The notes under the pieces: generated by a model
What the model saw: the letters and a program-made list of their open reading frames with translations, nothing else
Database searches by the model: none
Told to the model about the DNA's origin: nothing
Assembly (NCBI GenBank): GCA_030698405.1
Contig: JAUYMU010000048.1
Location: 1-41,259, forward strand
Origin: Bacteroidota bacterium
GTDB lineage: Bacteria > Bacteroidota > Bacteroidia > Bacteroidales > Prolixibacteraceae
Direction: 5' to 3'
Length of the DNA: 41,259 nt
Program-made: the position numbers and the translations under genes
Part shown: positions 13,982 to 31,800 of the stretch, one piece after another
How positions within the stretch are numbered: position 1 is the first letter of the stretch
Layout: each line of letters begins with the position of its first letter

Positions 13982-13988
13982 CGTGTGT

Positions 13989-14180: not shown

Positions 14181-14264
14181 GAAAAATATGTTTTCTATTG
14201 CCTTTGATTGCTTCCATTTTCTTCAGTTATTCTGCCTTTGGCTGTTTTCCGAAATATTGTGGGA

Positions 14265-16388: not shown

Positions 16389-16393
16389 GGCGT

Positions 16394-16723
16394 TTAAAAT
16401 GAGTTAAGTGCATTTTCGATGGAGTCGGTAATTTCGAAAAAATTGATGAATCCTGTCATCGACATCACATCCCTGATTTCTTCGGAAACTCCAACCAGAA
16501 TTACCTTTCCGTTTTTCGATTTAATTTGCCGGTAAATCATCAGCAAAACTCTTAATCCGGCGCTGGATACATAACTGACACCGGAAAGATCGAGCAGCAC
16601 ATTGTTCGTTTCGGCGACTGTTCCCATAATTTGCGACTGAAGATCTCCGGCGGTTTTGCTGTCGATACTTCCTTCAGCCGTTATTATTACGATATTTTCG
16701 TTTTTACTGATACTTACGTTCAT
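16394..16723 (-). CDS. STAS-domain protein (second antagonist) inside the glgX unit
   Basis: This 109-residue single STAS domain has the motif LSGVSYVSSAGLRVL, where S54 (the Ser before Ala-Gly) is the expected phospho-acceptor. The frame extends to a TTG at 16747, but the ATG at 16723 (MNVSIS) matches the usual STAS start and I use it. It sits between the AGE-like gene (25 bp) and glgX (5 bp). A regulatory protein between two carbohydrate-active enzymes suggests that its level follows that of the enzymes, or that it reports on the pathway. A plausible partner is the RsbW-like kinase at 13225-13659. Confidence 0.88.
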   Translation of the reverse strand: MNVSISKNENIVIITAEGSIDSKTAGDLQSQIMGTVAETNNVLLDLSGVSYVSSAGLRVLLMIYRQIKSKNGKVILVGVSEEIRDVMSMTGFINFFEITDSIENALNSF

Positions 16724-16748
16724 TGTCTCAATTTTTAAAGGATTCAAA

Positions 16749-18587
16749 TTAATCCAACCACGATTTGGGTGAGATTTTCACTTTCACTCGAACCTGCTTG
16801 TCGGTTTCAGGCAATTGAACGGTTAGGTTGTTTGCATCGAAATTCGTGTAAGGTTCGTCGTCGATAAAACATTCTTCTAGAAACACGCTGTTGGGAGGAA
16901 GAATATCAGGAGAAACCCGTAGGATATTGTCTTTAAATCCGTTTGGCATCGGTTTGAAGTACAGGAACAGTGGTTGCTTGGTGATCAGCAGGTTGATGTA
17001 TGTTGCCGATAAATAGCAAAGTTCCATGCTGTGGTAACCGCTCATGGAGTGGCTTCCCTTGAAACGTTCGTTGCCCAAAAGGTATGGTAAGCCATTGGCT
17101 AGTGTATTGAAATAAACTCCGCCATCGTCGTTGTCGAGGAAAAATGAGTTGTAGAAAGCGGCCACTTCTCGGGCGTGTTTGTTGTATTCATCATCTTTTA
17201 AAATGCCGTGCAAAATCAGGTAGGCCAAAACTGCCTGTTCCTGTTGCCACCAGGCTTTCCGGTCGTGCCATACAAATTCGGGATGTTTGCCATCCGGTTT
17301 TTTTGTTCTTTCCACCACATCGTACCAGCCGCCGCGCTGTCTGTCGCACCCGTATTCGGGCATTAATTCAGCAATTTTACGGGCAAATTCGATGTATTCA
17401 GGTTTTGGTTTCAGCGATTGCATCCTCATCAGGTTCCATGCAATCTTCAGGTTATGACCGACAACCGCCCTGTTTTGCTGCCAGCCCCAACTTTGGTCTT
17501 TGCTCCAGTCTTCAAAGAATTTTTCCTGAACGAATGGACTGTTTTCGTAATCGGGAAAATATTTTGTGATGGTATCGAAGGTGTATTCCAGAAACTCGGC
17601 ATGTTTCGGATCGCCGGTTGCCAGGTAAAGATTAATCAGGTAGGCAGGGGCATGATCGCCCACCGAATTCCAGTTTTTGCGGGCACGGTTATGAGCCAGC
17701 GATTCGGCTCTCGGATCGAGTGTAATTGGGTCGATGTGCGAAAAATAGCCCATTCCAGCTTCGTCTTTAAAGAATTTCTCAAACAAAGACAGCGTTTTTT
17801 CGATGTCGGACATGATTTTTGGATCGCCTGTAATGCGCATGGTTTGCGTTGGACCTGCCAAAGCATAAATCTGCTCATACATCGGGAGCGAATCGTAATC
17901 GTCGCCAAATTCGGAGGTGAGCAATTTTGTCTCTTTGTCGCCTTCAACTTTTAAACCGTGATACCAATATACAATGTCCTCGTCGGCATCGTAGAAGCGC
18001 ATGTGATCGCGCAGGTATTCGGTTCCTTTTTCTGCGCCTTCCAAGAATTCCTCTTTCCCGGTTAACAGGTAGGCCGAAGCAAATCCGAAAACCAGCCGTG
18101 AAATGGTGTCTGTTTCCTGCAAGAAATCGCCTTTTTTTGCGCCGCCAAGTTGGAGCATCGTGCGGTATTTCGAATAATCGATAGGCTCGTGAGGGTGGTT
18201 GAATTGCCAGTTGAGGTAGCTGTGTGCAATGGAGTCGATTTGGTTGATCCACCAATCCGGTTCCTCGTGCCGGTAAATTCCGGGACCCTTGCCGGGGAAA
18301 ACCAGCCACTGCGCCTGAAATATTGTTTCAGACTGTTCGGTTCCGGGGTAAAAAGTGCCATAAGCAAAAACCATTTGACGGGGCAGGGCCAGCAGTTTGT
18401 ATATGTCGCCGGTAGCATCCTGGTAGCCTTCATTCAGGTTTCGGGCATAACGTGCGTAGCAATTGTCGGTTAAAAAAGCTTTAAACTCGCGGGCATCGGA
18501 AGTTTTTAATTTAAAACTGCGTTCGCTTAAATTGAAATCGGTAACATAACCGGCGATTGTGTCTGAAAAGGTGAAATTGATTTCCAT
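16749..18587 (-). CDS. AGE-superfamily (alpha/alpha)6-barrel protein, large form with an extra N-terminal domain
   Basis: This 612-residue protein is related to N-acylglucosamine 2-epimerase and cellobiose epimerase/mannose isomerase. Superfamily hallmarks are NRAVVGHNLKIAWNLMRM (H378 of the GHxxxxAW motif) and KAWWQQEQAVLAYL (about 444-457), with HDRKAW just before. Ordinary AGE enzymes have about 400 residues. Here about 110 residues precede the barrel, with an apparent small beta-rich domain (residues about 10-100), and a C-terminal beta tail follows (about 540-612). It probably isomerises or epimerises a sugar or oligosaccharide, but the substrate is unknown. Shine-Dalgarno AAGGAG lies 7 nt before the ATG. 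Its place between LtrA and STAS/glgX suggests a role in storage-glucan or stress-linked sugar metabolism. Confidence 0.8.
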   Translation of the reverse strand: MEINFTFSDTIAGYVTDFNLSERSFKLKTSDAREFKAFLTDNCYARYARNLNEGYQDATGDIYKLLALPRQMVFAYGTFYPGTEQSETIFQAQWLVFPGKGPGIYRHEEPDWWINQIDSIAHSYLNWQFNHPHEPIDYSKYRTMLQLGGAKKGDFLQETDTISRLVFGFASAYLLTGKEEFLEGAEKGTEYLRDHMRFYDADEDIVYWYHGLKVEGDKETKLLTSEFGDDYDSLPMYEQIYALAGPTQTMRITGDPKIMSDIEKTLSLFEKFFKDEAGMGYFSHIDPITLDPRAESLAHNRARKNWNSVGDHAPAYLINLYLATGDPKHAEFLEYTFDTITKYFPDYENSPFVQEKFFEDWSKDQSWGWQQNRAVVGHNLKIAWNLMRMQSLKPKPEYIEFARKIAELMPEYGCDRQRGGWYDVVERTKKPDGKHPEFVWHDRKAWWQQEQAVLAYLILHGILKDDEYNKHAREVAAFYNSFFLDNDDGGVYFNTLANGLPYLLGNERFKGSHSMSGYHSMELCYLSATYINLLITKQPLFLYFKPMPNGFKDNILRVSPDILPPNSVFLEECFIDDEPYTNFDANNLTVQLPETDKQVRVKVKISPKSWLD

Positions 18588-18594
18588 TGTTTAT

Positions 18595-18600
18595 CTCCTT
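18595..18600 (-). promoter_or_regulatory. Shine-Dalgarno AAGGAG before the AGE-family gene
   Basis: AAGGAG is spaced 7 nt from the ATG at 18587. It is one of the few clear ribosome-binding sites in the window and supports this start over internal ones. Confidence 0.5.
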
Positions 18601-18610
18601 TATTAAGTTT

Positions 18611-19828
18611 TTAATTGATTTTCAACTGTGATGATAGCCATAAATGCAAACCCTGTATGGCCGGAATAGCCAGAATTGTACCCAATAAGCCAAGTAGTAC
18701 GAACATATTAAATGAACTGCCAAAAATTCCTATGGCGATGGCCAGGGCTGCACTTATTACTTTGAAAGAAAACAGCATTTGGTTATTCTTCCTGTGAAAT
18801 ACGATTACCTTATGGTGGTGGTCTTCGTTTTCGGAAACAAGTCCGAGCAGACCGGTTATCAGCAGGGTTGAGGCAACTGCGCCGCACAATAACCAGTGAA
18901 CCGGAAATGGAACAAGATTTTCCGGAGAAGTCGTGAAAATTGCCAGAATTCCTGATCCGACTGCAGTGATAGACATTGTCAATGGCAAATGCAAATAGCT
19001 CCAGCCCAGAATGTGCCATACATTTCGTTTAAAAACCCGGTACATTACATGGTCGATGTACAGCCACCAGATAAGAAATGAAATACACAATCCCAATATG
19101 CAGGAAATAGCAGTTCCCCAGGTGAATAAATCAGCAGAGGAAAGTCCGTTTACAGAGGCGACCACCGTTTCGCCTATGGTTAAAATTACCAATAGTCCAA
19201 AACGTTCAGGAATATGAGAAGTGCTTATTTTAGGCAACTGTGCCTGTGTTTTGAGGGTTACAATTGGCGTAATCATATCGATGAACAGGCCGGTTCCCCA
19301 CAAAATAAATTTATATGGCGCCGGAACAAAAATTGAAACGATCCAGATGATAACTGATATAGAAAATCCGGAAGTAAAAATATAGGAAAGCCTTCTTTCG
19401 AGCTTGGTTTCTCCGGCGGTAAGCCACAAATAAATCAGCAGGATGCGCGAGATAAGGTAGGACACGGCAAATATGTTTGCTTTATCGCCCATTGCGCCAT
19501 GAACCGAAAACGCGATTCCAGCCAAAGGAATCATATTCAGAAAGGTGAATATCCGGTGACGGATATCGTTCATTTCGTATCGCTCGTTGTAGTAAGTAAT
19601 GCTGTTCCAGATCCACCAGGCAGGAATAAATAAAAAGATGAACTCGCCAAAGCCTTCCCACGAAATATGTTTGAAGAGCGAATGCGATAACTGGGCAAGA
19701 ATGGATACAAACATCAGATCGTAAAAAAGTTCCAGCCACGAGGCTTTCCGCTCTTTATCAATGTTTTCGTCTGTCCGTATCTTTGGTTTTTGCCACCAGA
19801 TATGCTTGCCGTGTATAAAAACGTTCAT
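18611..19828 (-). CDS. LtrA family (low temperature requirement A) membrane protein
   Basis: 405 residues with about 10-12 hydrophobic helices. The family signature is near the N-terminus: ASWLELFYDLMFVSILAQLS (about residues 29-48). LtrA was first named in Listeria for growth at low temperature. Its biochemical role is not established, and transport has been proposed. The C-terminal helices are followed by a short basic tail. It starts 39 bp after the VOC gene and ends 23 bp before the AGE gene, so it links the DJ-1/ThDP cluster to the glgX unit in one continuous run. Confidence 0.85.
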   Translation of the reverse strand: MNVFIHGKHIWWQKPKIRTDENIDKERKASWLELFYDLMFVSILAQLSHSLFKHISWEGFGEFIFLFIPAWWIWNSITYYNERYEMNDIRHRIFTFLNMIPLAGIAFSVHGAMGDKANIFAVSYLISRILLIYLWLTAGETKLERRLSYIFTSGFSISVIIWIVSIFVPAPYKFILWGTGLFIDMITPIVTLKTQAQLPKISTSHIPERFGLLVILTIGETVVASVNGLSSADLFTWGTAISCILGLCISFLIWWLYIDHVMYRVFKRNVWHILGWSYLHLPLTMSITAVGSGILAIFTTSPENLVPFPVHWLLCGAVASTLLITGLLGLVSENEDHHHKVIVFHRKNNQMLFSFKVISAALAIAIGIFGSSFNMFVLLGLLGTILAIPAIQGLHLWLSSQLKIN

Positions 19829-19867
19829 GAATTGAAGGTTTAATCCTGATGGAGTTTGTTGGTTTAA

Positions 19868-20278
19868 TTAATATTCGTCTTTATAGCCTTCGCTCACTTC
19901 GATGATGTTTCCTTCGGGATCGGCAAGCCAGGCAACCCTCATTCCGGGGATAAATGCGCTCATATCGGCCGGGCCTAAAGTAATTTTCGCAACATTTTCC
20001 AGTTCCTTTAGCATTTCATCGAGGTTCTCAACCGCAAAACATACATGCCGCCAGCAGGGATACATGGGGCCGGCTTCAATCGGAGCATTGTCGGGTCGTT
20101 CTTCAGTTGCTTTGAATATTTCGAAATACATCGCGTCTTTTTTTATCATCACCACCTGGTCGGGACCGGGTGCATAAACGCGCGTTCTTCTAAAACCAAA
20201 ATATTGGGTGTAAAATTCTTCCAGCCTGATTGGATCTTTTGCTACCAATCCGATGTGTGAAAAGGTTGAGTTTGCCAT
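19868..20278 (-). CDS. VOC superfamily protein (glyoxalase-I-like)
   Basis: This 136-residue single VOC domain pair has the four expected metal ligands: H8 (FSHIGL), E53 (MYFEIF), H78 (WRHVCFAV) and E127 (NIIEVSEGY). This is the arrangement of glyoxalase I and related lyases or dioxygenases that act on hemithioacetals or vicinal-oxygen substrates. The substrate is unknown. It starts 6 bp after a DJ-1/PfpI gene and is the last member of the cluster that begins at 25879. Association with DJ-1 and MBL proteins fits a role in handling 2-oxoaldehydes, but this is inferred only from company. Confidence 0.87.
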   Translation of the reverse strand: MANSTFSHIGLVAKDPIRLEEFYTQYFGFRRTRVYAPGPDQVVMIKKDAMYFEIFKATEERPDNAPIEAGPMYPCWRHVCFAVENLDEMLKELENVAKITLGPADMSAFIPGMRVAWLADPEGNIIEVSEGYKDEY

Positions 20279-20284
20279 TTATAG

Positions 20285-20851
20285 TTATTTTGATAGAATT
20301 TCAATTATTTTTTTCGCGAATAAATGTGCATGTCCGCCGGAACGCCCAGTAACGAGGTCGCCATCAACCACCACGTCTTCATCGGTATAAATTGCGCCGT
20401 AGGCTTTCGCATCGCCAATCAGGTTGTTGTGGCATACCAGTTTCCGTCCTTTTATTACTTCTGAAATGGGCGCTGTCAGCCACAATCCGTGACAAATAAT
20501 TCCCTTCAGGATACTTTTTTCAGCAAAAGCTCTTTTCAGGAATTCGGCTGCCGGTGGAATTTTTGTAACATCTTCGGTCCAGCGCAAACGGTCGGAAACC
20601 ATTCCTGAAGGAACGATGATGGCGCTGTAAGTCCGAAGTTCTTCGTCGCTCATATTTTCAAACGATTCCCAACATTCCATCGGAACTTTGTATTCATGCC
20701 CGTGAAAAGTCAACCGTTCCTGACCCCAAAGGCGCGAGAGAAAATGTACTTCAGCGCCTTCTTCGGGGAAACGGTATTTGTAGTAGAAAATCTCGTTTTC
20801 GTAATAATCGGCTTCAAAAAGAATCCCGATTTTTTTTCCTGTCAGACTCAT
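20285..20851 (-). CDS. DJ-1/PfpI family protein (short form)
   Basis: 188 residues with a flavodoxin-like fold. The reactive Cys sits in the nucleophile elbow GIICHGLWL (C120, followed by H121), and an acidic residue in EADYYENE (about 13-20) can pair with it. The C-terminus has the GRSGGHAH tract. The Cys-His order and length resemble PfpI/YhbO-type proteins, which include reported glyoxalase III, deglycase, peptidase and isonitrile hydratase activities. It lies between a SnoaL-like gene (10 bp) and the VOC gene (6 bp). It is one of three divergent DJ-1 paralogues in the same run, so they probably act on different substrates. Confidence 0.87.
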   Translation of the reverse strand: MSLTGKKIGILFEADYYENEIFYYKYRFPEEGAEVHFLSRLWGQERLTFHGHEYKVPMECWESFENMSDEELRTYSAIIVPSGMVSDRLRWTEDVTKIPPAAEFLKRAFAEKSILKGIICHGLWLTAPISEVIKGRKLVCHNNLIGDAKAYGAIYTDEDVVVDGDLVTGRSGGHAHLFAKKIIEILSK

Positions 20852-20861
20852 TTTTCAGATG

Positions 20862-21215
20862 TTATTTAAAAACTGATGTGTCGTGAAAATTTGAAAAATA
20901 CACGATTTTCCCATCTTTCACCCGGTAGTAATTTGCGCCTTTCAAATCCAGTTTATTCCCGTTTGCCATGGGCGATTGAATGTTCCACAATGCAACGGCC
21001 TTGTCGCCTTCGACAATTATTTCAAGCGGAAAATTTCTGAATTCCCGGTTGTTTCTGAGGCCTTCAATACCTGCGGCAACGTTCTCAATACCTTCGATAT
21101 GGCCGAGCAATTGCTCTTCCATGATAACGTTCTGATCGAAAAGTGTGAGATAAGCATCCCAGTTTCCGGAGTTAACAAACTCGAAATATTTTTCAATAAC
21201 TTCTTTTGTAGTCAT
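20862..21215 (-). CDS. NTF2-like / SnoaL-like domain protein
   Basis: This 117-residue protein has the cone-shaped alpha+beta fold signature: an N-terminal helix (TTKEVIEKYFEFVNSGNWDA), a YLTLFDQNVIMEEQLLGHIEGI segment and the C-terminal strand pair NYYRVKDGKIVYFSNFHD. Members are small hydrolases, isomerases or ligand carriers. No catalytic residue can be assigned with confidence. It starts 21 bp after a second NTF2-like gene. Confidence 0.8.
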   Translation of the reverse strand: MTTKEVIEKYFEFVNSGNWDAYLTLFDQNVIMEEQLLGHIEGIENVAAGIEGLRNNREFRNFPLEIIVEGDKAVALWNIQSPMANGNKLDLKGANYYRVKDGKIVYFSNFHDTSVFK

Positions 21216-21236
21216 TACGATTGGGTTAAAATGTTT

Positions 21237-21677
21237 TTACTGAACTTCGGATATTCGTTTGAATGAATCAAATTCACCCACTTTGTATTTCACAATTACC
21301 GCTTTGTTGCGTTTTGTGTCTTTTTTCACTTCCCACTCCTGATGTACACAATATCCTTCCCATTTGCTGTATGCGGCGGGGGCTTCCCATGTTTTGGCCT
21401 GCCAGTTTACAATTACCTTTACTTTTGCACGGTCGCCATCAATGGCGATATCCAGCATTTGAATGATGTGCTGCTGGTCAAAAAAGGTATGGGTAACATT
21501 GTGCAACCATGTCCGAAATTCATCCGCGTTTTTTATCGGGCAATTGGGAAATTCAATCAACAGGTCATCGTCTGAACTTACCAATTCGAGCAATTCTTCG
21601 GCAGGAGCATGTTCTGTAAGTTTTTTAAACCAGTAATAGGCCAATTCTTTTACTTCGGAAGTTGTTAAGGTTTCCAT
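21237..21677 (-). CDS. NTF2-like (SnoaL-type) protein, second copy
   Basis: 146 residues that appear to share the NTF2 fold. Helix 1 carries ELAYYWFKKLTEHAPAEELLELVS, then LLIEFPNCPIKNADEFRTWL, a HNVTHTFFDQQH stretch, and central strands with VKVIVNWQAKTWE. Sequence is very different from the neighbouring copy, so this is not a recent duplication. Clusters of SnoaL-like genes beside DJ-1 genes suggest paired binding or processing of one small molecule, but this is speculation. The gene lies 11 bp after the DJ-1 gene at 21689. Confidence 0.7.
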   Translation of the reverse strand: METLTTSEVKELAYYWFKKLTEHAPAEELLELVSSDDDLLIEFPNCPIKNADEFRTWLHNVTHTFFDQQHIIQMLDIAIDGDRAKVKVIVNWQAKTWEAPAAYSKWEGYCVHQEWEVKKDTKRNKAVIVKYKVGEFDSFKRISEVQ

Positions 21678-21688
21678 TTTGATTTCTT

Positions 21689-22447
21689 TTATTTTGATAA
21701 AACTTCAACCAGTAATTTCCCATAAGCCATTGATGATTCAACCGATAATGCGGTAACGAAGGGGAAATCGTAAGCTACGCAAGGTTTTTCGCGGTTCGCG
21801 GTTTCATCGGCAAGAACAGTCCCGTTTGGTCCGGCAGCATCTTCCACCAAATATTGTAAAGGAAAAACAAACCCTTGGGTAACAAGGTCGGTGCCTTTAT
21901 TTTCGGGGATAGTGTTCACCAAATCGTACGACAAATCCGAATCAAAATCCCATGCATGTGGATGGGCGCATACTTTTTTACCCCAGATAATACTTTTGTT
22001 ATTGTTTTCAGGATTGCGCGTTTGTGCGAGTGCAGCCATGGTGTAGCAAATTGCCCCGATTACTTTTTTTGATTGAAAAGCCTCCAGCAACAATCTGTGT
22101 ACAAACGGATTTCCGGTAATATCCAGGGGAGATCCGGGCCCGCCAACCATCACAATCGCGTCAAAATCGTTCATGTTTGCTTCTTCGATCTTTATTGGAT
22201 TATTCCATTCTCCATTTTGCAGAAGTTCGTTGACCCGATTAACAACTTCAGGAGGATTTACCTTGTAGTTTTGTTTGGGGTCAATCATTTCAGCATCCAT
22301 GCTGATTACCATCGGGAGTGGTGTTTTTCCGAATTTGGTGGCGAGGGTAAGTTCAAAACCTGCATTTTTAAGTGCATCCCAGGGAGCTTGCAATTCTTCG
22401 GCCCACAAGCCGTAATTCGATGCCAAACAGAGTATTTTTTTGTTCAT
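21689..22447 (-). CDS. DJ-1/PfpI family protein (Hsp31-like, medium form)
   Basis: 252 residues. The N-terminus has ILCLASNYGLWAEELQAPWD with an acidic pair (E17/E18), the mid-region VMVGGPGSPLDI, and the nucleophile elbow GAICYTMAAL (C134). The length and the ASNYG/GGPGSP motifs resemble the Hsp31/type-1 glutamine amidotransferase-like branch, in which glyoxalase III activity is known. It lies 17 bp after the MBL gene, inside the cluster. The C-terminal motif VTALSVESSMAYGKLLVEVL resembles the tail of the 278-aa paralogue at 25043, which ends FLTARSLQCSYEFGEVFVQML. These two are therefore closer relatives of each other than of the short DJ-1 at 20285. Confidence 0.87.
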   Translation of the reverse strand: MNKKILCLASNYGLWAEELQAPWDALKNAGFELTLATKFGKTPLPMVISMDAEMIDPKQNYKVNPPEVVNRVNELLQNGEWNNPIKIEEANMNDFDAIVMVGGPGSPLDITGNPFVHRLLLEAFQSKKVIGAICYTMAALAQTRNPENNNKSIIWGKKVCAHPHAWDFDSDLSYDLVNTIPENKGTDLVTQGFVFPLQYLVEDAAGPNGTVLADETANREKPCVAYDFPFVTALSVESSMAYGKLLVEVLSK

Positions 22448-22464
22448 TTCAACTGATTTTTTGG

Positions 22465-23322
22465 TTATAAAACGCCGTCTTTTTTTAATGCAGTAACCAT
22501 ATCGTCAAATTGCCAACCGGTTAAAAAAAGTAATTTGTCGCTTGGCAAATAGGATTTCAAGGTATTGAAAAGTAGCTGTTGTTCCTCTGGAGAAAGTGTT
22601 GGCTTATCGCCCAGCAGATCTTTTAATTTCCGCAGAAAAGCCTGAATGTATCCTCTTTTCCAATAGAGCATTTCGATTCCCATTTCTTCGCCATGTCCGG
22701 CATGGAAAACGGTATTGGTATCAAATTTTGAGATGCAGTAGTCAAGCTGTTTTAACCAGTTGCTTACATGCCCGTCCCTGAAGAAAGTGTGCATGTGGTT
22801 ATAAACGATATCGCCGCTGAACACATGCAACGAATTATCAATCTTCATCGACCACAACGAATCATCGTCTGATTCACATGCGCCTAAATTTTCAATGGTG
22901 AACGAAAGATTATCAAAGGTAACGGTATCGCCACTTTTTACCAGTTGATTTGCAAATACCCTTTCTTTTGGATACAAAGCGCCAAAAGCCTGATCGCTTC
23001 CAAGATATCCGCTTTCCTCTTCGTCGCGGGCCAGACATTGATTTAAAGCGCCCTGTGTAGCAATTACCGGAATGTCGCCATATCCTTTAATCAGTTCGGC
23101 TACACCGGTATAATGGTCGGGATGACCATGGGTGAGAAGCACTCCAAGAAGTTTTTTCTTTATTTTATCCTGAATGATTTCCCGCAGATCGTTTGTTGAG
23201 GGAATTGCTAGGGTTGAATCAACCGCGATTACGCCATTTTCCGATTCAATTAAATAGGCATTTACAAAGAAGTTGCCAATGGTAGCTTCGTATTTGTGGA
23301 TTTTTGGTTTAAAATCAAGCAT
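22465..23322 (-). CDS. MBL-fold hydrolase (glyoxalase-II-like)
   Basis: This 285-residue metallo-beta-lactamase-fold protein has the motif LLTHGHPDHYTG (H65, H67, D69, H70), FSGDIVYNHMHT for the bridging Asp, and a VFHAGHGEEMG His. These residues fit a di-metal hydrolase such as a thioester or lactone hydrolase. The last part is helical. The likely role is hydrolysis of a product of the ThDP enzyme or of a thiol adduct, but the substrate cannot be read from sequence. It starts 24 bp after the ThDP enzyme gene. Confidence 0.85.
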   Translation of the reverse strand: MLDFKPKIHKYEATIGNFFVNAYLIESENGVIAVDSTLAIPSTNDLREIIQDKIKKKLLGVLLTHGHPDHYTGVAELIKGYGDIPVIATQGALNQCLARDEEESGYLGSDQAFGALYPKERVFANQLVKSGDTVTFDNLSFTIENLGACESDDDSLWSMKIDNSLHVFSGDIVYNHMHTFFRDGHVSNWLKQLDYCISKFDTNTVFHAGHGEEMGIEMLYWKRGYIQAFLRKLKDLLGDKPTLSPEEQQLLFNTLKSYLPSDKLLFLTGWQFDDMVTALKKDGVL

Positions 23323-23346
23323 TGTTTTTATGTTATTATTGTTAAA

Positions 23347-25053
23347 TTATTTGTTAGTAATTTCTCGTATTAACTCGGGGTGAACGTTTCCTTCGATTAC
23401 CAGATCAATCAAAAATGGCTTGTCGTCGGCCAGCATCTTTTCGATTGCAGGTTCAATATCTTCCGCTTTTTCAACACGCACAGCATCCACTCCCATTGAT
23501 TTTGCAATCTGGTCGAAGTGCAAAGCCGGATGCGATAAATCAAAACTTAGCGGGAATCCATGTTTTTGAACCTCTCTTTCTTTCCAGTATTGGTCAATAT
23601 TAAGTTGTAGTAATCGATAGGACGAATTATTACATACGATAAATTTTGCTCCTATCGAATGTCTAACTGCCGACCACAATGCCTGAATGGTGTACATTGA
23701 ACCGCCGTCGCCGGTAAATCCGATAACAGTTTTGTCGGGTTGATGTAATTTTACTCCCATTGCCCCCGGAATGCCCACACCCAATGAACCGCCACGAGTT
23801 ACAAAATAAGTTCCAGGAGATTTTGGCGGGATATACCGGGTAATGGCCGGAGAACTTGTCAATGCTTCGTCGAAAATGATCGTATCCGGCGGAATCTTTT
23901 TGGCCAATAGTTCAGCAAACTCCGACATTTGAAGAGGTTCTTTTCCCATCAATTCTTTGTCCGCTTCAATTACTGCTGAATTGTTCTTTTCCTTTTGAAG
24001 TTTAAGGGTTTCAATCCTTTGTACAGCTGCATTTTTTTGTTCCGGAGTCATTGATTTTTCGAGCGCTACGGCAAGCGCTTTCAGGGTTAATTTCGGATCG
24101 CAAACTGCGCCAATATCCACGCGGTGATTCTTAGCTATTTCATAAGCATTCAAATCAAAATGAATCACTTTTGCGTCTTTTGCATACACATCTCCCAATT
24201 CAGGAAAAACTTCCGGGAGCATGTAGGTTCCAACAATAAGGTTCGCATCTCCTTTTTGTGTGATTGGCAAACTTGCCGATCCGAACATGTGGCCGGTTGT
24301 TCCCTGATAGAGTGGGTGAGTGGTGTCCATCAGGAAGTCGCCAAAGTCAACGCCAAATACTTCGGCTCCCAGCAATTCAGCAACGTGTGTAAGTTCATCG
24401 GCCGCTCCTGAATATGCAACTCCATCGCCAATAAAAATCATTGGTCTTGTTGCTGCTGACAGGATTTTCGCAGTTTCCTGAATTATGCTTTCTTCAGGAA
24501 TTACTCGGGTTGACGGAATGAATGTTGGTATAATTTCTTCATTATTTGCCGTATCTAAAATGTCCATGGGGAGACAAACATAAACTGGTCCCATTGGTGG
24601 AGTTGCTGCAATTTTAATTGCCCGGCGAAGCGTTCTCAGCAAATTTTTCGGTTCGGTTACAATGGTTGAATATTTGGTAACCGGAGCCATCATGGCCACC
24701 AAATCGTTGGCCATCTGGGCATCCATGTTCATGTATTTCACACCGGCATCGCCACCAATTACAACCAATGGCGAATGTCCACGTTTTGCCTGGTACAAAG
24801 CTCCGACAGCATTGCCGATTCCGGGAGAACTGTGCAATTGAACCAGTGTGGGTTTTTGTGTTGACCGGGCATATCCGTCGGCAGTTAATACAGCAATACT
24901 TTCCTGAAGGCTAAGAATATATTTCATGTCGGGATATTCAGTCATCGCATCCAGAAAACCTTGTTCCACGGTTCCCGGATTTCCGAACATGATATTCATT
25001 CCGTCAGCAAGAAATTGTTCTATAATTTTATGGTTCCCCGTATTACCAGCCAT
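23347..25053 (-). CDS. Thiamine-diphosphate enzyme, benzoylformate-decarboxylase-like
   Basis: 568 residues in the three-domain layout of 2-oxoacid decarboxylases and acetolactate synthases. The N-terminal Pyr domain has FGNPGTVEQGF, the ThDP-activating Glu in LSLQESIAVL (E51), and LHSSPGIGNAVGAL with H74. The middle domain is nucleotide-binding-like. The PP domain has the Mg-ThDP motif GDGGS (448-452) with NN about 24 residues later. The LHS..G.GNA.GAL and GNPG patterns resemble benzoylformate decarboxylase more than acetolactate synthase, but the position of the catalytic Ser in GNPGS is Thr28 here. A 2-oxoacid decarboxylase or carboligase is likely; the substrate is unknown. The start overlaps the end of the preceding DJ-1 gene by 11 bp. 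Confidence 0.87.
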   Translation of the reverse strand: MAGNTGNHKIIEQFLADGMNIMFGNPGTVEQGFLDAMTEYPDMKYILSLQESIAVLTADGYARSTQKPTLVQLHSSPGIGNAVGALYQAKRGHSPLVVIGGDAGVKYMNMDAQMANDLVAMMAPVTKYSTIVTEPKNLLRTLRRAIKIAATPPMGPVYVCLPMDILDTANNEEIIPTFIPSTRVIPEESIIQETAKILSAATRPMIFIGDGVAYSGAADELTHVAELLGAEVFGVDFGDFLMDTTHPLYQGTTGHMFGSASLPITQKGDANLIVGTYMLPEVFPELGDVYAKDAKVIHFDLNAYEIAKNHRVDIGAVCDPKLTLKALAVALEKSMTPEQKNAAVQRIETLKLQKEKNNSAVIEADKELMGKEPLQMSEFAELLAKKIPPDTIIFDEALTSSPAITRYIPPKSPGTYFVTRGGSLGVGIPGAMGVKLHQPDKTVIGFTGDGGSMYTIQALWSAVRHSIGAKFIVCNNSSYRLLQLNIDQYWKEREVQKHGFPLSFDLSHPALHFDQIAKSMGVDAVRVEKAEDIEPAIEKMLADDKPFLIDLVIEGNVHPELIREITNK

Positions 25054-25879
25054 AGCGTTTCAACCCTTTTTCAAGCATTTGAACGAAAACTTCGCCAAAC
25101 TCATAAGAGCATTGTAACGAGCGCGCAGTAAGGAATGGATAATCAAGAATGACAGAAGTTTCTTTACCGAAATTTCCGTGGTATTGCCCTTCGGATCCGA
25201 CAGCATCGGTTAAAACATATTCCAGGACATAGGGTGGAGGCCCAATATTGAAGTCAGTATGCAGGAAACCTGTTCCATCGTGGTAATCGTATTCAATGCA
25301 ATGTCCGGTGACATGTTTACCGCGAATGATGCATTTCCGTTCATTAAAATCGCGTGCAAAAGCAAGCGGAGCAACACCATAGCATATTCCGGCAATGGGC
25401 AGGTTTTTATGGTAGAAACCAAGAATCAATTCATGTAAACTTTGATTGTTTACCATATCTACAATTGGACCACTGCCGCCAACCAGCAATAATGCATCAT
25501 ATTCGGAGGTTAATTTCTGAACCGACTCTTTTACTTTTACATAGTACGCTTCTAATTTGCGTAAAAAATCGGGAGCCGAATGATAAGGGCGTTCAGGAAT
25601 AAAAGATTTTAAACTTAAAGGACTTGCAGTGCGGTTTTTTGCAATAAATTCCTTTACGTCTTTTTCATGTTGAGCCGTTGTAACGCATACTCCAAGCGGT
25701 GGGTCGGTGTATTCCGGATCGTAACTTGGCGGAAGAGCGTCCGCTGCTTTGCCGTTTGGAGTCATAAATTCAACTTTATAGCCTGCGGCTTCCAGCTTAT
25801 TTAACGGACCTACCAGTTCAATTCCCCAATATCCGTATTCGGATAAAATGGCCAATACTTTTTTTGAGCTCATATTCAT
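25043..25879 (-). CDS. DJ-1/PfpI family protein (Hsp31-like, long form)
   Basis: 278 residues and first gene of the cluster. The N-terminus VLAILSEYGYWGIELVGPL carries E21. A helical insertion (about 70-125) interrupts the fold. Then come LLLVGGSGPIVDMV and the nucleophile elbow AGICYGVAPLAF (C166). The long form with an insertion resembles the Hsp31-type holdase/glyoxalase III branch. The overlap with the ThDP gene suggests translational coupling. An ATG two codons downstream (25873) is an alternative start. An inverted repeat (25901-25922) lies 21 bp upstream and may be an operator. Confidence 0.87.
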   Translation of the reverse strand: MNMSSKKVLAILSEYGYWGIELVGPLNKLEAAGYKVEFMTPNGKAADALPPSYDPEYTDPPLGVCVTTAQHEKDVKEFIAKNRTASPLSLKSFIPERPYHSAPDFLRKLEAYYVKVKESVQKLTSEYDALLLVGGSGPIVDMVNNQSLHELILGFYHKNLPIAGICYGVAPLAFARDFNERKCIIRGKHVTGHCIEYDYHDGTGFLHTDFNIGPPPYVLEYVLTDAVGSEGQYHGNFGKETSVILDYPFLTARSLQCSYEFGEVFVQMLEKGLKRYGW

Positions 25880-25900
25880 ATTTTTAATTGAAATTGTAAC

Positions 25901-25922
25901 TATAGATATACCAGTGTCTATA
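25901..25922. promoter_or_regulatory. Inverted repeat upstream of the DJ-1/ThDP cluster (possible operator)
   Basis: A perfect 6-bp dyad, TATAGA (25901-25906) and TCTATA (25917-25922), is separated by 10 bp. It lies in the AT-rich 180-bp region before the first gene of the cluster. Its size and position suit a dimeric repressor or activator, but no regulator gene is adjacent. A dyad this short can occur by chance in AT-rich DNA. Confidence 0.35.
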
Positions 25923-26061
25923 TGTACAAGAAAAAAGCATGATGTTAAATGTGCATAAATTTAGGAATATTATTTTATTAACTATTATAAGATTCATTTT
26001 TTTTTTGATGTTTATTAATGCTGTGTTTCATTATACATTCTATACTCCTTCCTTGATAAAC

Positions 26062-26334
26062 TTAATTGAGATTATATGGGATTACGGCTTCATCAGGTGT
26101 TACAACAACCCATTGATCGCTTTTAAGTTCATGTTTGAGGATGTATATTTTTTTGCCTGCTGTGCGAACTTTAAAATAGTCAGCCACCGGCGAGTCCGGC
26201 GTTTCTTGTGTCTGGTACCAACGATCCGCTATTTCTTTAATTTCGAACTTAATATTTTCCCAATAAAAGCAGATTGGATATTCGTTGGCTTTATAGCCCG
26301 AATGACATTCAACTTTTACCGGAATCAGTTTCAT
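26062..26334 (-). CDS. Small conserved cytoplasmic protein, unknown function
   Basis: This 90-residue protein starts MKLIPVKVECHSGYKANEYP and contains CFYWENIKFEIKEIADRWYQ, SPVADYFKVRTAGKKIYILKHEL and SDQWVV. I recall short proteins with this layout as conserved unknowns in Bacteroidetes, with a mainly beta structure and no signal peptide. The frame is antisense to a longer + strand ORF (25939-26505), which I reject as coding. It lies 182 bp upstream of the DJ-1 cluster on the same strand. Confidence 0.7.
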   Translation of the reverse strand: MKLIPVKVECHSGYKANEYPICFYWENIKFEIKEIADRWYQTQETPDSPVADYFKVRTAGKKIYILKHELKSDQWVVVTPDEAVIPYNLN

Positions 26335-26409
26335 TTTTCACAGTTTAATCCTGAAAAAACTTCTCATAACAGTTTAAAATACCTTTTATACGAATTGATC
26401 ATTAATCGG

Positions 26410-26438
26410 TTGAGCTACTTCCCGGAAAAATATATTTG
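26410..26438 (+). promoter_or_regulatory. Promoter candidate for the first ECF sigma gene (TTG-18-TATATTTG)
   Basis: A -33 type TTG (26410-26412) and TATATTTG (26431-26438) are separated by 18 bp, near the 19-bp spacing usual in Bacteroidetes. A second TATATTTG follows at 26467-26474. The ATG is at 26506. Confidence 0.5.
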
Positions 26439-26466
26439 TTTAGCTGGGGTACTTGTTTTTGATAGC

Positions 26467-26474
26467 TATATTTG
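26467..26474 (+). promoter_or_regulatory. Second TATATTTG element
   Basis: An identical octamer 36 bp downstream of the first and 31 bp before the ATG at 26506. It has no clear -33 partner. Two tandem -7 elements could give two start sites. Confidence 0.4.
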
Positions 26475-26505
26475 CCAGCAATCTTTTGGATTTTACAAAT
26501 CAGGT

Positions 26506-27102
26506 ATGTCGAAACAAAATTTTAAAAACGATACGGAAGCCTTGTTGCAGATGTCGGATGGGAGCATCGCGGCTTATCGTTTTCTGTTCGACCAGCATTT
26601 TTCCGATTTGTGCAATTTTCTCCTGATTTATTTGCATTCGAAGGAACTTTCCGAAGAAATCGCGCTCGAAATTTTCACGCACATTTGGGAAAAGCGCGAA
26701 GATCTTGTGATTAAAGCTACTTTTAAATCCTTCCTTTTTGCTTCGGCCAAAAACAAAGCCATTAGTTATTACCGCAAAGAAAATAAGGTAATGTTCGCCA
26801 CGCTTGAAGCCGGTGAACCAATGATATCCGAAGTTTCAAACGCCCAGCAATTTATGGAGAACAACGAACTTCGTGAATTAATTGATGCTGCAATAGGCAA
26901 ACTTCCGGAGAAAAGCCGGCAAATTTATCAGTTGGCCTGGGAGGAAAACCTGTCGCACAAAGAGATTGCCGAACAATTGGGAATTACCCCAAAAACCGTT
27001 GAAAACCATGTGGGCATTGCCTTGCGTAAACTTCGCGAATCGCTGAAACCATATTACAAACAGATTTTCATGGTTTGGGCGGTTCAGTTTCTTCTGAAAT
27101 AA
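26506..27102 (+). CDS. ECF-type RNA polymerase sigma factor (first of two)
   Basis: 198 residues. Region 2 is recognisable at LSEEIALEIFTHIWEKREDL. Region 4 with its helix-turn-helix is at LPEKSRQIYQLAWEENLSHKEIAEQLGITPKTVENHVGIALRKLRESL. Layout and length fit the Bacteroidetes ECF sigma factors linked to FecR. The frame is open back to 25939, but the upstream part is non-coding and antisense to the 90-aa gene. The ATG at 26506, preceded by two TATATTTG elements, fits the conserved start. The protein ends in a hydrophobic tail (IFMVWAVQFLLK), also seen in the second sigma. It has no dedicated anti-sigma gene of its own; 18 bp separate it from the second sigma gene. Confidence 0.88.
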   Translation: MSKQNFKNDTEALLQMSDGSIAAYRFLFDQHFSDLCNFLLIYLHSKELSEEIALEIFTHIWEKREDLVIKATFKSFLFASAKNKAISYYRKENKVMFATLEAGEPMISEVSNAQQFMENNELRELIDAAIGKLPEKSRQIYQLAWEENLSHKEIAEQLGITPKTVENHVGIALRKLRESLKPYYKQIFMVWAVQFLLK

Positions 27103-27120
27103 TTGATACTTTTACGATAA

Positions 27121-27720
27121 ATGATTGCGAAAAATTTGCCAACCAATATTGTAGGGGGTTTAATCATCGGTGATGAAGAAACATATATTTTCCTGTTCAG
27201 GGAATATTATGTGAGCCTTTGCGCCTATTCCAGAAGGTATGTTGGACGTAAGGATATTGCTGAGGAAATCGTTTCTGATACTTTTATGCGAATCTGGGAA
27301 ACCAGGGAAACAATCAAAATAAAGACTTCGGTAAAAGCCTACCTTTTTCAGGCAGTTTGCAACAATTCACTCAACTATTTGCGAAAGCTGAAAAAAGAAG
27401 AAGTTTTGGATGAATACTTTCTGGAAACATCTGCCGAAAACATCGGATTTGCTGCTACTTCAGAAGAAATTGAAGAGCAAAGCCTGACAATGGAAAACAT
27501 CCATGAGAAAATTGAAGAAGCGGTCAGCCTGTTACCCGAACAACAGCAAAAGGCATTCAGACTAAAACGGTTTGAAGGTAAAAAGACCAGGGAAGTCGCT
27601 GAAATTATGGGCTTGTCGGTAAAAACAATAGAAATGCATCTTTCAAAAGCCACCCTCCGGTTACGGCAAAATTTAAAAGACTACCTTCCATCATTTCTGT
27701 TGTTTTTATTGTTGAAATAA
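27121..27720 (+). CDS. ECF-type RNA polymerase sigma factor (second of two)
   Basis: 199 residues with region 2 at YVGRKDIAEEIVSDTFMRIWETRETIK and region 4 at LLPEQQQKAFRLKRFEGKKTREVAEIMGLSVKTIEMHLSKATLRLRQNL. It shares the hydrophobic C-terminal tail (LLFLLLK) with the first sigma factor. It directly precedes the FecR gene (75 bp), so it is the likely client of that anti-sigma factor and a probable activator of the susCD genes. The two sigma factors differ widely in sequence, so this is an old duplication or an assembly of unrelated genes. Confidence 0.9.
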   Translation: MIAKNLPTNIVGGLIIGDEETYIFLFREYYVSLCAYSRRYVGRKDIAEEIVSDTFMRIWETRETIKIKTSVKAYLFQAVCNNSLNYLRKLKKEEVLDEYFLETSAENIGFAATSEEIEEQSLTMENIHEKIEEAVSLLPEQQQKAFRLKRFEGKKTREVAEIMGLSVKTIEMHLSKATLRLRQNLKDYLPSFLLFLLLK

Positions 27721-27795
27721 TTTTTTTCAATTTTTCTCCATTTCCAATACAGGGTTTTTTCATTTCGTGCATCTATACTTTGAAAACACATAAAA

Positions 27796-28791
27796 ATGGA
27801 AAACCAATCCGATATAAATATTCTTATTATCCGCCTGCTTTCAGGAGAAGCTGAGGTGAATGAAAAGAAGATAATTGCCGACTGGCTCAGCCAATCGGAT
27901 GAAAACAAAAAGCTGTTTGCCGATCTGAAGGAAATCTGGCTGAGTTCAGGAATTCAAAGTAATGCCGACAATTATCATTTGGAAGAAGCTATCCTGAAAT
28001 TCAGGCAACACATCAGCAAATCAAAACAACCGCAGAAACTTCGGATCAATTTCATGCCCTACCTAAAATATGCAGCCATTGCCATTTTGATTCTGGCGCT
28101 TCCGTTCAGTTATTATATCGGAACCCGAAACATCCCGGCTGACAATTCTATGACAACGATCTCCTGCGCTTTTGGCGATAAATCGAGCATCGTTTTGCCC
28201 GATAACTCCAGGGTATGGCTGAATTCAGGCAGTAAATTAACCTTCAGTTCCGACTTTAAAAATGGCAGAAAGGTTTCTCTTGAAGGTGAAGCATTCTTTT
28301 CGGTTTCCAAAGATAAAGACAATCCATTCAGGGTAAAAACTACTGATATTGAGATTGAAGTTTTGGGCACCGAATTTAATGTGAAAGCCTACGCGGAAGA
28401 AAATACAGTTTCGACCACATTGGTAGAAGGAAGTGTGAAAATTTCAAGCAAAAATCAGCAGACCCTCCTAAAGCCAGATCAAAAACTGGTGTTTGACAGA
28501 GAAAATAGGAAAATGAGGATTCAGGAACTCACTGATACAGCACCGGATACAGAGTGGAAAGATGGCCGTTTTGTTTTTCGCAACGAATCGCTGGCCGAGT
28601 TAGCGCCAAAGCTGGAACGCTGGTTTGACGTTGACATTGTTTTTGCCGATGAACAGGTGAAAAACAGGAGGTTTACCGGGGTTCTGCAGCGTGAAAGTAT
28701 TCTGGAAGCCATTTCGTACTTCGATCATTCCCGGTTTGTAATCTGCCGGGTGCAAGACAATAAAATCATCATTAAATCTCAAAATAACTAA
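27796..28791 (+). CDS. FecR-family anti-sigma factor
   Basis: 331 residues with an N-terminal cytoplasmic anti-sigma part (about 1-88), one TM helix (about 90-107, AAIAILILALPFSYYIG), a periplasmic FecR domain (about 120-215: SSIVLPDNSRVWLNSGSKL, VEVLGTEFNVKAY) and a C-terminal DUF4974-type domain (about 250-330: WKDGRFVFRNESLAELAPKL). The family senses substrate binding by the STN domain of a TonB-dependent transporter and then releases the sigma factor. Here the following SusC protein has an STN domain, which completes the signalling chain. Confidence 0.93.
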   Translation: MENQSDINILIIRLLSGEAEVNEKKIIADWLSQSDENKKLFADLKEIWLSSGIQSNADNYHLEEAILKFRQHISKSKQPQKLRINFMPYLKYAAIAILILALPFSYYIGTRNIPADNSMTTISCAFGDKSSIVLPDNSRVWLNSGSKLTFSSDFKNGRKVSLEGEAFFSVSKDKDNPFRVKTTDIEIEVLGTEFNVKAYAEENTVSTTLVEGSVKISSKNQQTLLKPDQKLVFDRENRKMRIQELTDTAPDTEWKDGRFVFRNESLAELAPKLERWFDVDIVFADEQVKNRRFTGVLQRESILEAISYFDHSRFVICRVQDNKIIIKSQNN

Positions 28792-28825
28792 AATGAAATG
28801 CGTATGACCTATTTGAAATGAAAAA

Positions 28826-28848
28826 GGGAAGTGCTACCAACACCTCCC
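28826..28848 (+). promoter_or_regulatory. Leader hairpin upstream of susC
   Basis: GGGAAGTG (28826-28833) pairs with CACCTCCC (28841-28848) with one internal mismatch around a 7-nt loop. It lies 48 bp before the susC ATG and 34 bp after the fecR stop. It is followed by GTAATTATT rather than a T run, so a leader structure seems more likely than a full terminator. Confidence 0.45.
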
Positions 28849-28896
28849 TCCAGTAATTATTAAACCGAAGTTTAACTTTTTAAAACGTTCAAATTT

Positions 28897-31800
28897 ATGA
28901 AATTAAATCGAAATGTCTTGTCCATTTTTAAAAATGGGCAGTTAAAAAAATGCATGCGAATTATGAAACTAAGCTCCTTTCTAATTCTGTTTCTAACCCT
29001 GCAAATGAGTGCATCGGTTTGGTCACAAACCACCACCATGAGTGTCAAGTTGAAAAATTCGACTTTGCAGGAGTTGTTTCTCCAAATTGAGAAAAGCAGC
29101 AACTACCGCTTTTTCTACAACAACGATGAAGTGGATGTCAGCCAACGGATTTCGGTTGATGCTGAAGAAAAAACAGTTGGAAAGATACTGGAAGCTGCCT
29201 TCGAAGGCCTGCCGTATTCATTCAAAGAGCTGGAAAACAAACTCATCCTCATTGAGCGGAACGGGGCTAAACCCAATCCAATTGGAATAACCATGCAGCA
29301 GCAAAAATCTGTCTCGGGTAAAGTCACTGATTCTTCAGGTGCTTCATTGCCTGGCGTTTCTGTGGTCGTGAGAGGTACAACTATTGGAACCATAACTGAT
29401 GCCGATGGAAAATATTCTATTTCGAATGTCCCGGACAATGCAACTTTGCAGTTTTCGTTTGTCGGAATGAAATCGCAGGAAGTTGCGGTCGGAAATAATG
29501 CAACAGTTAATGTGACGCTCGAAGAAGAAACAATTGGAATTGACGACGTTGTTGTGATTGGTTACGGTACAAAATTAAAAGGGGAATTAACGGGATCTAT
29601 ATCAAAAGTAAACAACCAGGTTTTTGAAAAAAGGCCCATTACCAATACCATGAATGCCTTACAAGGGGCTTTGCCTGGAGTAGTTGTTACCCGGGGAAGT
29701 GGCCGACCCGGTGGTGAAGATTATTCACTGCAGATCCGTGGTTATTCTTCAATTGCCGGGAGTAGTCCTTTAGTATTGATTGATGGAATACCTGGAGATT
29801 TGAATACTCTTAATCCAAACGATATTCTTGATGTTACGGTATTAAGGGATGCTGCAGCATCAATTTACGGTGCGCGTGCTGCTGATGGGGTACTTATTGT
29901 TACTACTAAGAGTGGGAAAAAAGGAAAGCCAACTGTTTCTTATTCAGGAAACTTCGGGATAAAAGTACCGCAATATACAAAGACAATGACAAATACTTTG
30001 CAAATGGCGGAAATGTATGATGAGGGTATGAGAAATATTGGCCAGAAGGGAGTAACCCAAGAAGTTTTTGATAAAATTAAATCTAATGCATCACCAGATA
30101 TTAATGGAGGATGGATGAAATATTTGGAAAACTATCCCGGATTTTATGGAAACACCAATTGGACGGATGCAGTATTTGGAAACGGCCAACAGCAGTCGCA
30201 TAATATCAGTATCTCAGGTGGAGGGGATGAAAATGATTATCTTTTTTCTGTAGGTTACAAGAGCGATGGTGGAATATTAAATTATGGGACAGATAAGTCA
30301 CAACTTTTCAACTTAAGATTAAACTTAGGCTTTAAACTTTTCAAAATAGTGAATTTTGAAACTCGTACTAGTATTGATAATCACATAATTAATGAACCAT
30401 CAGGTTTGGATGGAGCCTTATTGCTTACAAACGTAATGTGGAGTTATCTGCCTATATACAATCCAAATGGTCAGTTATATTCGTACCAGGGCTATGGTAA
30501 TCCAATTCAAACTCTGCTTGAAGGTGGCCTAAGCAAGAAGGACTATTCTAAAATTTCGACTAGTATTAAAGGAGATGTAAAGATCTTAAAGGACTTGAAA
30601 TTAGTCATGCAAATGGGACTTACGCTGGGAAGAAATGATGCAAATGCCAACTATCGCACCTTCAATCAATTGAACTGGGCAGGTGGTTTACAGACTGTCT
30701 CTAACAATCCGAATAATGCTACTTATTCAAATACTAAAAATCTTTATGGGTCATCTACTGCTTATCTGGAGTATAATAAGATCCTTTTTGACAAGCATCG
30801 GTTAAATTTGATGACTGGCACCTCTCATGAGCAGAATGATTTCCAGAGTCAATCCACTACGGGATATAACTTCATTAGCAATGATTTGTTTACATTAAAC
30901 CTTGCTGATAAGACAAAAACAGCATATATGAATTTTACCGGATCGGCTAATGATTGGTCGTTGAACTCCTATTTTGGAAGATTTAGCTACTCTTTCGATA
31001 AAAAGTATAATGTAGATATTACCACAAGGATGGACGGGAGCTCAAAATTTGCTCCTTCAAAACGATGGAGCGCCGTATTCCCTGCTGTATCTGCATCATG
31101 GAACTTATCAGAAGAAAAGTTTATCCAATCCTTAAATACGTTTGATAATCTTAAGTTGAGGGCTTCATGGGGTCAATCCGGAAATCAGAATCTTAGTTTT
31201 GGAAACTACGACTATATTGCCCTCCTTTCTGTCTCTGGTAATTACCCTCTTGGCTCTCCAAATGTAGGATTAACCGGAGCAACCTCAAGTATTGCATCTG
31301 AATCACGTACATGGGAGACAATACAAACCACCAATGCAGGAATCGATTTTGCAGTTTTAGCATCAAGACTGACCGGAAGTTTAGACTATTTTATCAAACA
31401 AAACAATAACATGCTTGTTGCTGTCACGTTGCCCGCAACATTAGGTGGAACTCCACCAACACAAAACTTTGGTAAACTGGAAACAAAAGGTTGGGATGTT
31501 TCAATCGGCTGGAATGATACGAAAGGTGATTTCAAATACAGTATTTCAGCAATAATCAGCGATAACAAAACCAACTTGATTGATGTGAAGGGTAATGATA
31601 GTTATAAAGAAGGTTTGGTTTATACGCGAAAAGGATACCCGCTGAATTCTTATTTCGGGTACCAGTTTGATGGATATATTCAAAATACTGAAGAGCAGAC
31701 TGCTTATAAAAAATTGGGAGGTGTACCTTCAAATATAGGTTTGGGAGATGCAAAGTATAAGGACCTTGATGGTGATGGTAAAATTACTGCATTTGGCGAT

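Follow-up and report, generated by a model that had tools for sequence, protein, structure and literature searches.

The window analysed here, by which we mean the whole 41,259-nt stretch of contig JAUYMU010000048.1 from a Bacteroidota bacterium and to which all bare coordinates refer, carries 15 genes on the minus strand, transcribed in the direction 25879 to 11601. An earlier note on this DNA had described the first eight of them; their placement and strand, their gaps of 6-24 bp with one 11-bp overlap between the first two genes, and the families proposed for all eight proteins, which Pfam backs, were correct. The leading gene encodes DJ1A (25043-25879), a DJ-1/PfpI protein of 278 amino acids (ThiJ_like, PF17124) with an Hsp31-like fold according to Pfam, alignment and a structure model. 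Overlapping it by 11 bp is the gene for a 568-residue thiamine diphosphate (ThDP) enzyme of a subfamily like benzoylformate decarboxylase (BFDC) by Pfam and NCBIfam (23347-25053). There follow, after gaps of 24, 17, 11, 21, 10 and 6 bp, genes for a metallo-beta-lactamase-fold (MBL) hydrolase (22465-23322), a second DJ-1/PfpI protein, DJ1B (21689-22447), two NTF2-like proteins of the SnoaL_4 (21237-21677) and SnoaL_2 (20862-21215) families, the PfpI-type DJ-1 protein DJ1C (20285-20851) and a glyoxalase-fold VOC protein (19868-20278). The seven further genes, separated by 39, 23, 1, 5, 283, 1 and 46 bp, encode an LtrA-family membrane protein (PF06772; 18611-19828), an AGE epimerase-like protein, a STAS protein, the debranching enzyme GlgX, a second STAS protein, a HATPase kinase and a SpoIIE phosphatase.

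The eight genes had been taken as a whole cluster, but they are its front part only: the array continues past 19868 with seven further genes of the same strand, and comparison with an empty site shows that 11507-26487 is one block. In G014 (locus L200), a genome of the same genus that has neither the ThDP nor the AGE gene, the counterparts of the window's Mur-ligase gene (10127-11506) and of 26488-29568 adjoin, with 45 bp between them. Because these flanks are neighbours in G014, the segment between them, which comprises the 15 genes and their upstream region, was gained or lost as one piece. The ThDP gene was found in four of 149 relatives, all of the same genus (G000, G002, G012 and G021), and the AGE gene in the same four among 23 same-genus genomes, the window's own included. 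We are highly confident that the genes resembling the cyanobacterial icfG operon (see below) and the cassette in front of them constitute a single conserved block, and this transferable 15-gene block is probably one co-transcribed operon. An inverted repeat with 17-nt arms and a 5-nt loop (11514-11552), lying between convergent genes at the 3' end of the block, is a possible terminator. No mobile-element signature was seen at the block ends: the window has no tRNA gene, and no direct repeat was found within either end, the two ends not being compared with each other. Beyond 26487, genes for an extracytoplasmic function (ECF) sigma factor, FecR and SusCD form a separate unit. The sigma factor was considered as a member of the block and rejected, as it adjoins the Mur-ligase gene where the block is missing (G014); the open reading frame (ORF) at 25939-27102 is overlong at its start, a relative's sequence pointing to 26506 rather than 25939 as the start of the sigma factor. 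The ORF at 26062-26334 (90 amino acids), upstream of DJ1A, had no counterpart in the other loci compared and was excluded from the parts.

To follow these genes elsewhere, we scanned genome contigs, which gave 467 candidate stretches and 402 confirmed relatives, and searched plasmids with tblastn, where the matches listed (20 of 1664 records) included 14 rows at 49-74% identity, the next being at 31%; nine of the 14 were read. The best 80 of the 402 relatives, the nine plasmid loci and the window make up a set of 90 loci, and rates in this set apply to close relatives only. The window's own genome, its 28% paralogue and same-genus genomes (L001-L005) were dropped before counting. Genes were tallied by six-frame searches with profiles derived from these same loci because ORF calling failed in L009, L011, L012, L014, L080 and L087. 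The 90 loci span 14 named phylum-level groups and one unnamed group; labels are those of the record titles, and those of metagenome-assembled genomes (MAGs) may be wrong. L020 is titled Chitinophaga but shares its coordinates with G002, a genome of the window's genus; L019 is a contig of 3.6 kb; and identical ThDP rows occur in one set under two phylum labels.

DJ1A accompanies the ThDP gene in 89 of the 90 loci; in L066, the one locus without it, the ThDP gene stands at a contig end, its frame being open already at base 70. A SnoaL/NTF2 protein of any kind is present in 79 loci (SnoaL4 in 63, NTF2 in 48), DJ1C in 65 and VOC in 53, and GMC, EthD and xanthine-dehydrogenase-type genes in 44, 17 and 11. 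The icfG-type parts are AGE (62 loci), GlgX (50), STAS (36), HATPase (27) and SpoIIE (8, with models built from four rows each). Where more than 8 kb was available on both sides (62 loci), DJ1A occurs in 62, AGE in 52, DJ1C in 50, GlgX in 42 and STAS in 31. MBL (13/90), DJ1B (10/90) and LtrA (5/90, all labelled Bacteroidota) are accessories of the block, so MBL and DJ1B, proposed earlier as parts of the pathway, are present in the window but rare elsewhere. The nearest relative, L015, keeps the gene order of the window from DJ1A as far as the HATPase gene, at which its stretch ends. The combination of ThDP, DJ-1 and SnoaL genes thus recurs far beyond Bacteroidota, and the possibility raised in the earlier note that the set is found together in no other genome does not hold. 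Among 395 genomes of the phylum, the window's own included, we found the ThDP gene in eight, DJ1A in 13 and AGE in 13, scoring in most genomes the three best first-look candidates for ThDP and AGE and six for DJ1A. DJ1A and AGE occur in one and the same set of 13 genomes, which belong to five genera and so do not count as 13 separate events. Both genes accompany ThDP in seven of its eight genomes; in the eighth, G454, the ThDP gene runs from base 3 of a contig.

DJ1A and the ThDP enzyme were consecutive family matches in 88/90 loci, more often than any other of the 13 gene pairs counted. A start codon in the ThDP frame that gives the 11-bp overlap is present in all 33 Bacteroidota and all three Chlorobiota loci, and the same overlap is annotated in Runella (L006) and Streptomyces (L014), whereas the two annotated genes of L007 are 76 bp apart. 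Protein distances of DJ1A and the ThDP enzyme are correlated (r = 0.73, 85 loci; no permutation out of 1000 reached this value), with shared descent contributing to this value. The model of DJ1A (predicted local distance difference test score, pLDDT, 87) resembles 1u9c, 4p5p, SAV0551 and Hsp31, and E21, C166 and the tyrosine after the cysteine (Y167) are invariant in a 33-row alignment. DJ1A is therefore like the Hsp31/HchA-type glyoxalase III in its fold and in its retained Cys and Glu. It differs in having C166-Y167, whereas the elbow Cys of the HchA type presumably has a neighbouring His, and in scoring 26.6 bits against an NCBIfam HchA cut-off of 365. In DJ1C, C120-H121 and E20 are invariant over 23 rows, a Cys-His dyad plus Glu that we take to be the hallmark of PfpI/YhbO deglycases; the corresponding NCBIfam cut-offs were not reached (71.6 versus 139.05 and 53.9 versus 330). 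The elbow cysteines named earlier for DJ1A, DJ1B (C134) and DJ1C were all correct.

BFDC is both the nearest solved and the nearest curated (NCBIfam) family of the ThDP enzyme, which has the ThDP fold, the cofactor glutamate E51 and the GDG motif; E51 and GDGGS (448-452) had been correctly read before. G448-D449 is present in 90/90 rows, and T28, E51, H74, R91, Q113, M114, V282 and F283 are invariant in all 90. For BFDC itself we assume active-site roles of Ser26, His70 and His281. Like BFDC, the family keeps E51 and H74 (BFDC His70) throughout; unlike BFDC, it has T28 for Ser26 and V282-F283 for His281-Gln282 in every row. The enzyme remained under the NCBIfam cut-offs for the BFDC equivalog (302.6 bits versus 493) and acetolactate synthase (255.8 versus 538.35). 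The earlier assignment to BFDC-type enzymes acting on 2-oxoacids is accordingly not established for an enzyme that lacks two BFDC active-site residues. The top PDB match was 6A50, the man-made glycolaldehyde synthase GALS, which in the part of its description available to us was obtained from BFDC by the changes W86R, N87T, L109G, L110E, A460M, H281V and Q282F (PMC6435721). Measured against that list, the natural family resembles GALS in Val-Phe at the H281/Q282 positions (90/90) and has Leu (85 rows) or Ile (5 rows) at the A460M position; it differs in Gln/Met at 109/110 (Gly/Glu in GALS) and Arg at 87 (Thr in GALS), and GALS Arg86 is matched in only 3/90 rows. The Val-Phe pair and position 460 may hint at small polar substrates.

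The rear of the block corresponds in gene content to the icfG operon of Synechocystis sp. PCC 6803. In the portions of the literature available, the region slr1852-slr1862 is described as encoding an N-acetylglucosamine 2-epimerase (Slr1855), the STAS protein Slr1856, GlgX1, the STAS protein Slr1859, the phosphatase IcfG (Slr1860) and the kinase Slr1861; both STAS proteins are substrates of the kinase, IcfG removes the phosphate from Slr1856, and mutants show impaired use of carbon and glucose (PMC12329169, PMC8670252). The same descriptions do not state the role of the AGE-family enzyme; slr1853 is listed as a carboxymuconolactone decarboxylase and slr1854 as an unknown protein (PMC3564720). 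Compared by gene descriptions, the window has the same set: the AGE-family gene (16749-18587, by Pfam and fold match), STAS protein 1 (16394-16747, TTG start assumed), the GlgX-type glycogen debranching enzyme (isoamylase; 14265-16388), STAS protein 2 (13661-13981), the adjoining HATPase_c_2 kinase of RsbW/SpoIIAB type (13225-13659) and the SpoIIE-type phosphatase (11601-13178), which has a weak HAMP match under the Pfam cut-off. It differs in that the kinase gene precedes the phosphatase gene, whereas the phosphatase comes before the kinase by gene number in Synechocystis, and in that the available icfG descriptions name no DJ1A, ThDP, VOC, SnoaL or MBL gene.

The order AGE-STAS-GlgX was found in 31 of the 49 loci that have both AGE and GlgX, and in 27 of 38 in a cyanobacterial set. 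Conserved positions in these proteins include H378 of AGE in 57/57, D353 of GlgX in 44/44 and its E390 and D461 each in 42/44, the S-[AS]-G-L motif of the STAS copies in 61/63, and E47 and N51 of the kinase in 27/27. We take D353, E390 and D461 to be the catalytic set of GlgX. The AGE protein, for which 25 of 36 sequences were aligned, has the epimerase fold, nearest to the D-glucose 2-epimerase of Runella slithyformis (8h1k); its identity to this and other AGE enzymes is about 20%, and it has extra beta regions at both ends. In the one cyanobacterial order sampled, 55 of 195 genomes have AGE, and the AGE regions of 40 of these 55 were compared. Six of the 40 contain a ThDP match; 26 contain GlgX, STAS and a DJ1C-like gene with no ThDP match in the stretch. 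In 23 of these 26 the DJ1C-like gene scored 121-137 bits, whereas it scored 336-352 in those five ThDP-bearing stretches in which it is present, and because the scores divide in this way with the presence of the ThDP cassette, cassette-linked DJ1C seems to be a distinct branch, judged from sequence. The other three (L139, L141 and L145; 344-347 bits) also carry GMC, AKR, SnoaL4 and VOC genes and look like cassette loci cut off by the end of the stretch.

Two further enzymes of the front half were compared at their metal-ligand positions. The earlier note had credited MBL with a full HxHxDH site; HGHPDH is indeed present at 65-70, followed by D172 and H210, but 'full' was too strong, since all 15 aligned rows (two of which duplicate the window or L015) have a Glu at one ligand position. 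We take that position usually to hold a further His ligand in MBL enzymes, and presume that glyoxalase II combines HxHxDH with further His, Asp and His ligands; the protein scored 30.1 against a GSH_gloB cut-off of 200.8. The putative VOC ligands had been read correctly (H8, E53, H78 and E127) and are kept in 44, 52, 49 and 50 of 52 rows, respectively, with a score of 32.7 against the YaeR-type equivalog cut-off of 140. GMC or xanthine-dehydrogenase-type oxidases are among the accessory genes of other loci.

We propose that the block is a partner-switch-controlled glycogen and sugar operon joined to a cassette for carbon-carbon chemistry on small aldehydes, and put the probability of this whole statement, chemistry included, at roughly 0.45. 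The icfG-like role in this organism, every substrate and the order of the steps are what we infer. GlgX would open glycogen and the AGE-family protein would act on sugar set free from it, while the SpoIIE phosphatase and HATPase kinase would set the phosphorylation of the two STAS proteins, which would switch the system according to carbon state. In the front cassette, centred on DJ1A and the ThDP enzyme from overlapping genes, the ThDP enzyme may make or break a C-C bond beside the carbonyl of small polar hydroxy- or oxo-aldehydes, rather than decarboxylate aryl 2-oxoacids. DJ1A, DJ1C and VOC, with MBL and DJ1B in the window, might convert or clear 2-oxoaldehydes, and the SnoaL/NTF2 proteins might isomerise or bind intermediates.

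Several observations weigh against this proposal. In 25 of the 90 loci none of the five icfG-type parts lies in the stretch examined, and SpoIIE was recognised in only eight. A whole-genome search of three cyanobacterial genomes with ThDP left one, that of L092, without an AGE match at E 1e-40, and the cassette can therefore live apart. The 11-bp overlap is not general (46/88 loci over all groups, counted as an in-frame start codon at that place, for which chance matches are possible outside Bacteroidota and Chlorobiota). Only two of the seven GALS changes match exactly in all rows, the counts covering this ThDP family alone. Gln370 of AGE (54/57) apparently aligns with Asp254 of glucose 2-epimerase, which makes epimerase activity doubtful, and one GMC protein compared is nearer to choline/alcohol oxidases than to sugar oxidases. 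Finally, six of the 13 genomes with DJ1A and AGE have no close ThDP gene. In five of these six, STAS and SpoIIE flank DJ1A, and a SnoaL4-like gene, STAS and, where the contig permits, GlgX come next; in the sixth the order is DJ1B, MBL, DJ1A, DJ1C, GlgX, AGE. Judged by these surroundings, DJ1A goes together with the icfG-type genes also where the ThDP enzyme is missing.

The earlier note had proposed a pathway for reactive 2-oxo compounds, and the chemistry of Hsp31-like DJ-1, VOC, MBL and ThDP families still fits it, although the icfG-type glycogen and partner-switch module had been missed. Taken as an operon for detoxification of methylglyoxal or glyoxal and for protein deglycation, with the glycogen genes as passengers, that proposal would account for the window's three DJ-1 proteins and its VOC and MBL genes, for a DJ1A fold nearest to Hsp31-like proteins (SAV0551 among them) and for the PfpI Cys-His and Glu of DJ1C. 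Yet MBL and DJ1B are much rarer than SnoaL/NTF2 or GMC genes, no window protein attains an NCBIfam glyoxalase or deglycase cut-off, and detoxification as such could do without a ThDP enzyme and without a debranching enzyme; we regard it as unlikely. The near-invariant DJ1A-ThDP core amid variable tailoring genes (GMC, EthD, xanthine-dehydrogenase type and several SnoaL families) would instead suit a biosynthetic cluster that turns a glycogen-derived sugar into a specialised metabolite through a ThDP carboligase, SnoaL-type cyclases, VOC and GMC/xanthine-dehydrogenase-type oxidases, as would the presence of the genes in all nine plasmid records read and their patchy occurrence (8/395 genomes). 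However, the Pfam-labelled gene clusters, small clusters having been left unlabelled, include no polyketide or peptide synthase, many of the partner genes are sugar-metabolism enzymes, and porins recur (OprB type in seven loci, alginate-export type in four) with no dedicated exporter recognised, so this too seems improbable to us.

A general stress operon against drying, cold or osmotic shock, in which glycogen is remodelled, the DJ-1 proteins are chaperones and the ThDP enzyme is incidental, would draw on the partner-switch regulators and LtrA in the window and on GlgE/TreS-type neighbours in two Streptomyces plasmids. We consider it very unlikely: an incidental ThDP enzyme leaves the DJ1A-ThDP adjacency unexplained, and salt represses the Synechocystis operon in the description available (PMC8670252). 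The glycogen and aldehyde proposal can also be carried further. DJ1A and the ThDP enzyme may form one enzyme system, a natural carboligase or lyase for very small aldehydes (formaldehyde, glycolaldehyde, glyoxylate) or for sugar-derived oxoaldehydes, placed under icfG-type glycogen control and spread between phyla partly on plasmids, with the STAS protein between AGE and GlgX acting as a direct phospho-switch on both rather than as a sigma-factor regulator. We hold this extended form to be unlikely; if true, it would be an undescribed route linking storage glycogen with C1-C3 aldehydes.

Regulators and glycogen genes of this sort are known, whereas their union with the DJ1A-ThDP cassette appears undescribed by our searches of the open-licence literature, in which no paper describing the gene combination was found. 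A module of the icfG kind combined, across many phyla, with a DJ-1/ThDP pair in tight linkage offers a handle on what the module makes or burns. Should the ThDP enzyme turn out to carboligate small aldehydes, it would represent a natural equivalent of the enzymes engineered for one-carbon use, as far as the available parts of their descriptions go (PMC6435721, PMC8411744). In a quick tree of the ThDP enzyme with long branches, phyla cluster more than in shuffles, but 19 label changes are needed where 13 would be the minimum, and the five Pseudomonadota rows are scattered. Tree, plasmid carriage and patchy presence suggest some transfer between lineages, some MAG labels being doubtful.

Further observations concern the relatives and the surroundings of the block. 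L189 and L191, of one family that is probably Chlorobiaceae, have DJ1A but no close ThDP gene. The icfG-type operon of both includes a gene in which ankyrin and glyoxalase (VOC) are fused, a weak match in L191, and L189 has in addition a fused MFS transporter-HEAT gene between AGE and STAS. A phosphoketolase or other ThDP enzyme as a stand-in in genomes with only DJ1A and AGE was considered and rejected, the neighbours tested being an MFS-HEAT protein (785 amino acids, L189) and an ankyrin protein (715 amino acids, L192). Near the cassette in L007, L010, L066, L068 and L081, GMC or EthD genes have genes for Nif11-like leader peptides next to them; no peptide-modifying enzyme is named in the two of these stretches that are annotated, and no further search was made. 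In the window itself, 2433-5804 holds a Type III restriction helicase together with a DNA methylase of only 283 amino acids, perhaps a decayed restriction-modification system, and two long ORFs without a Pfam match (35309-37108 and 39086-40954) are part of a SusC/SusD-type locus in which GH2 and SASA esterase domains also occur. In Dyadobacter and its relatives (L023-L041), a gene for an nSTAND1/NACHT-type NTPase, from a cluster of 15 loci with one copy typed by Pfam, follows the partner-switch genes downstream of the HATPase gene.

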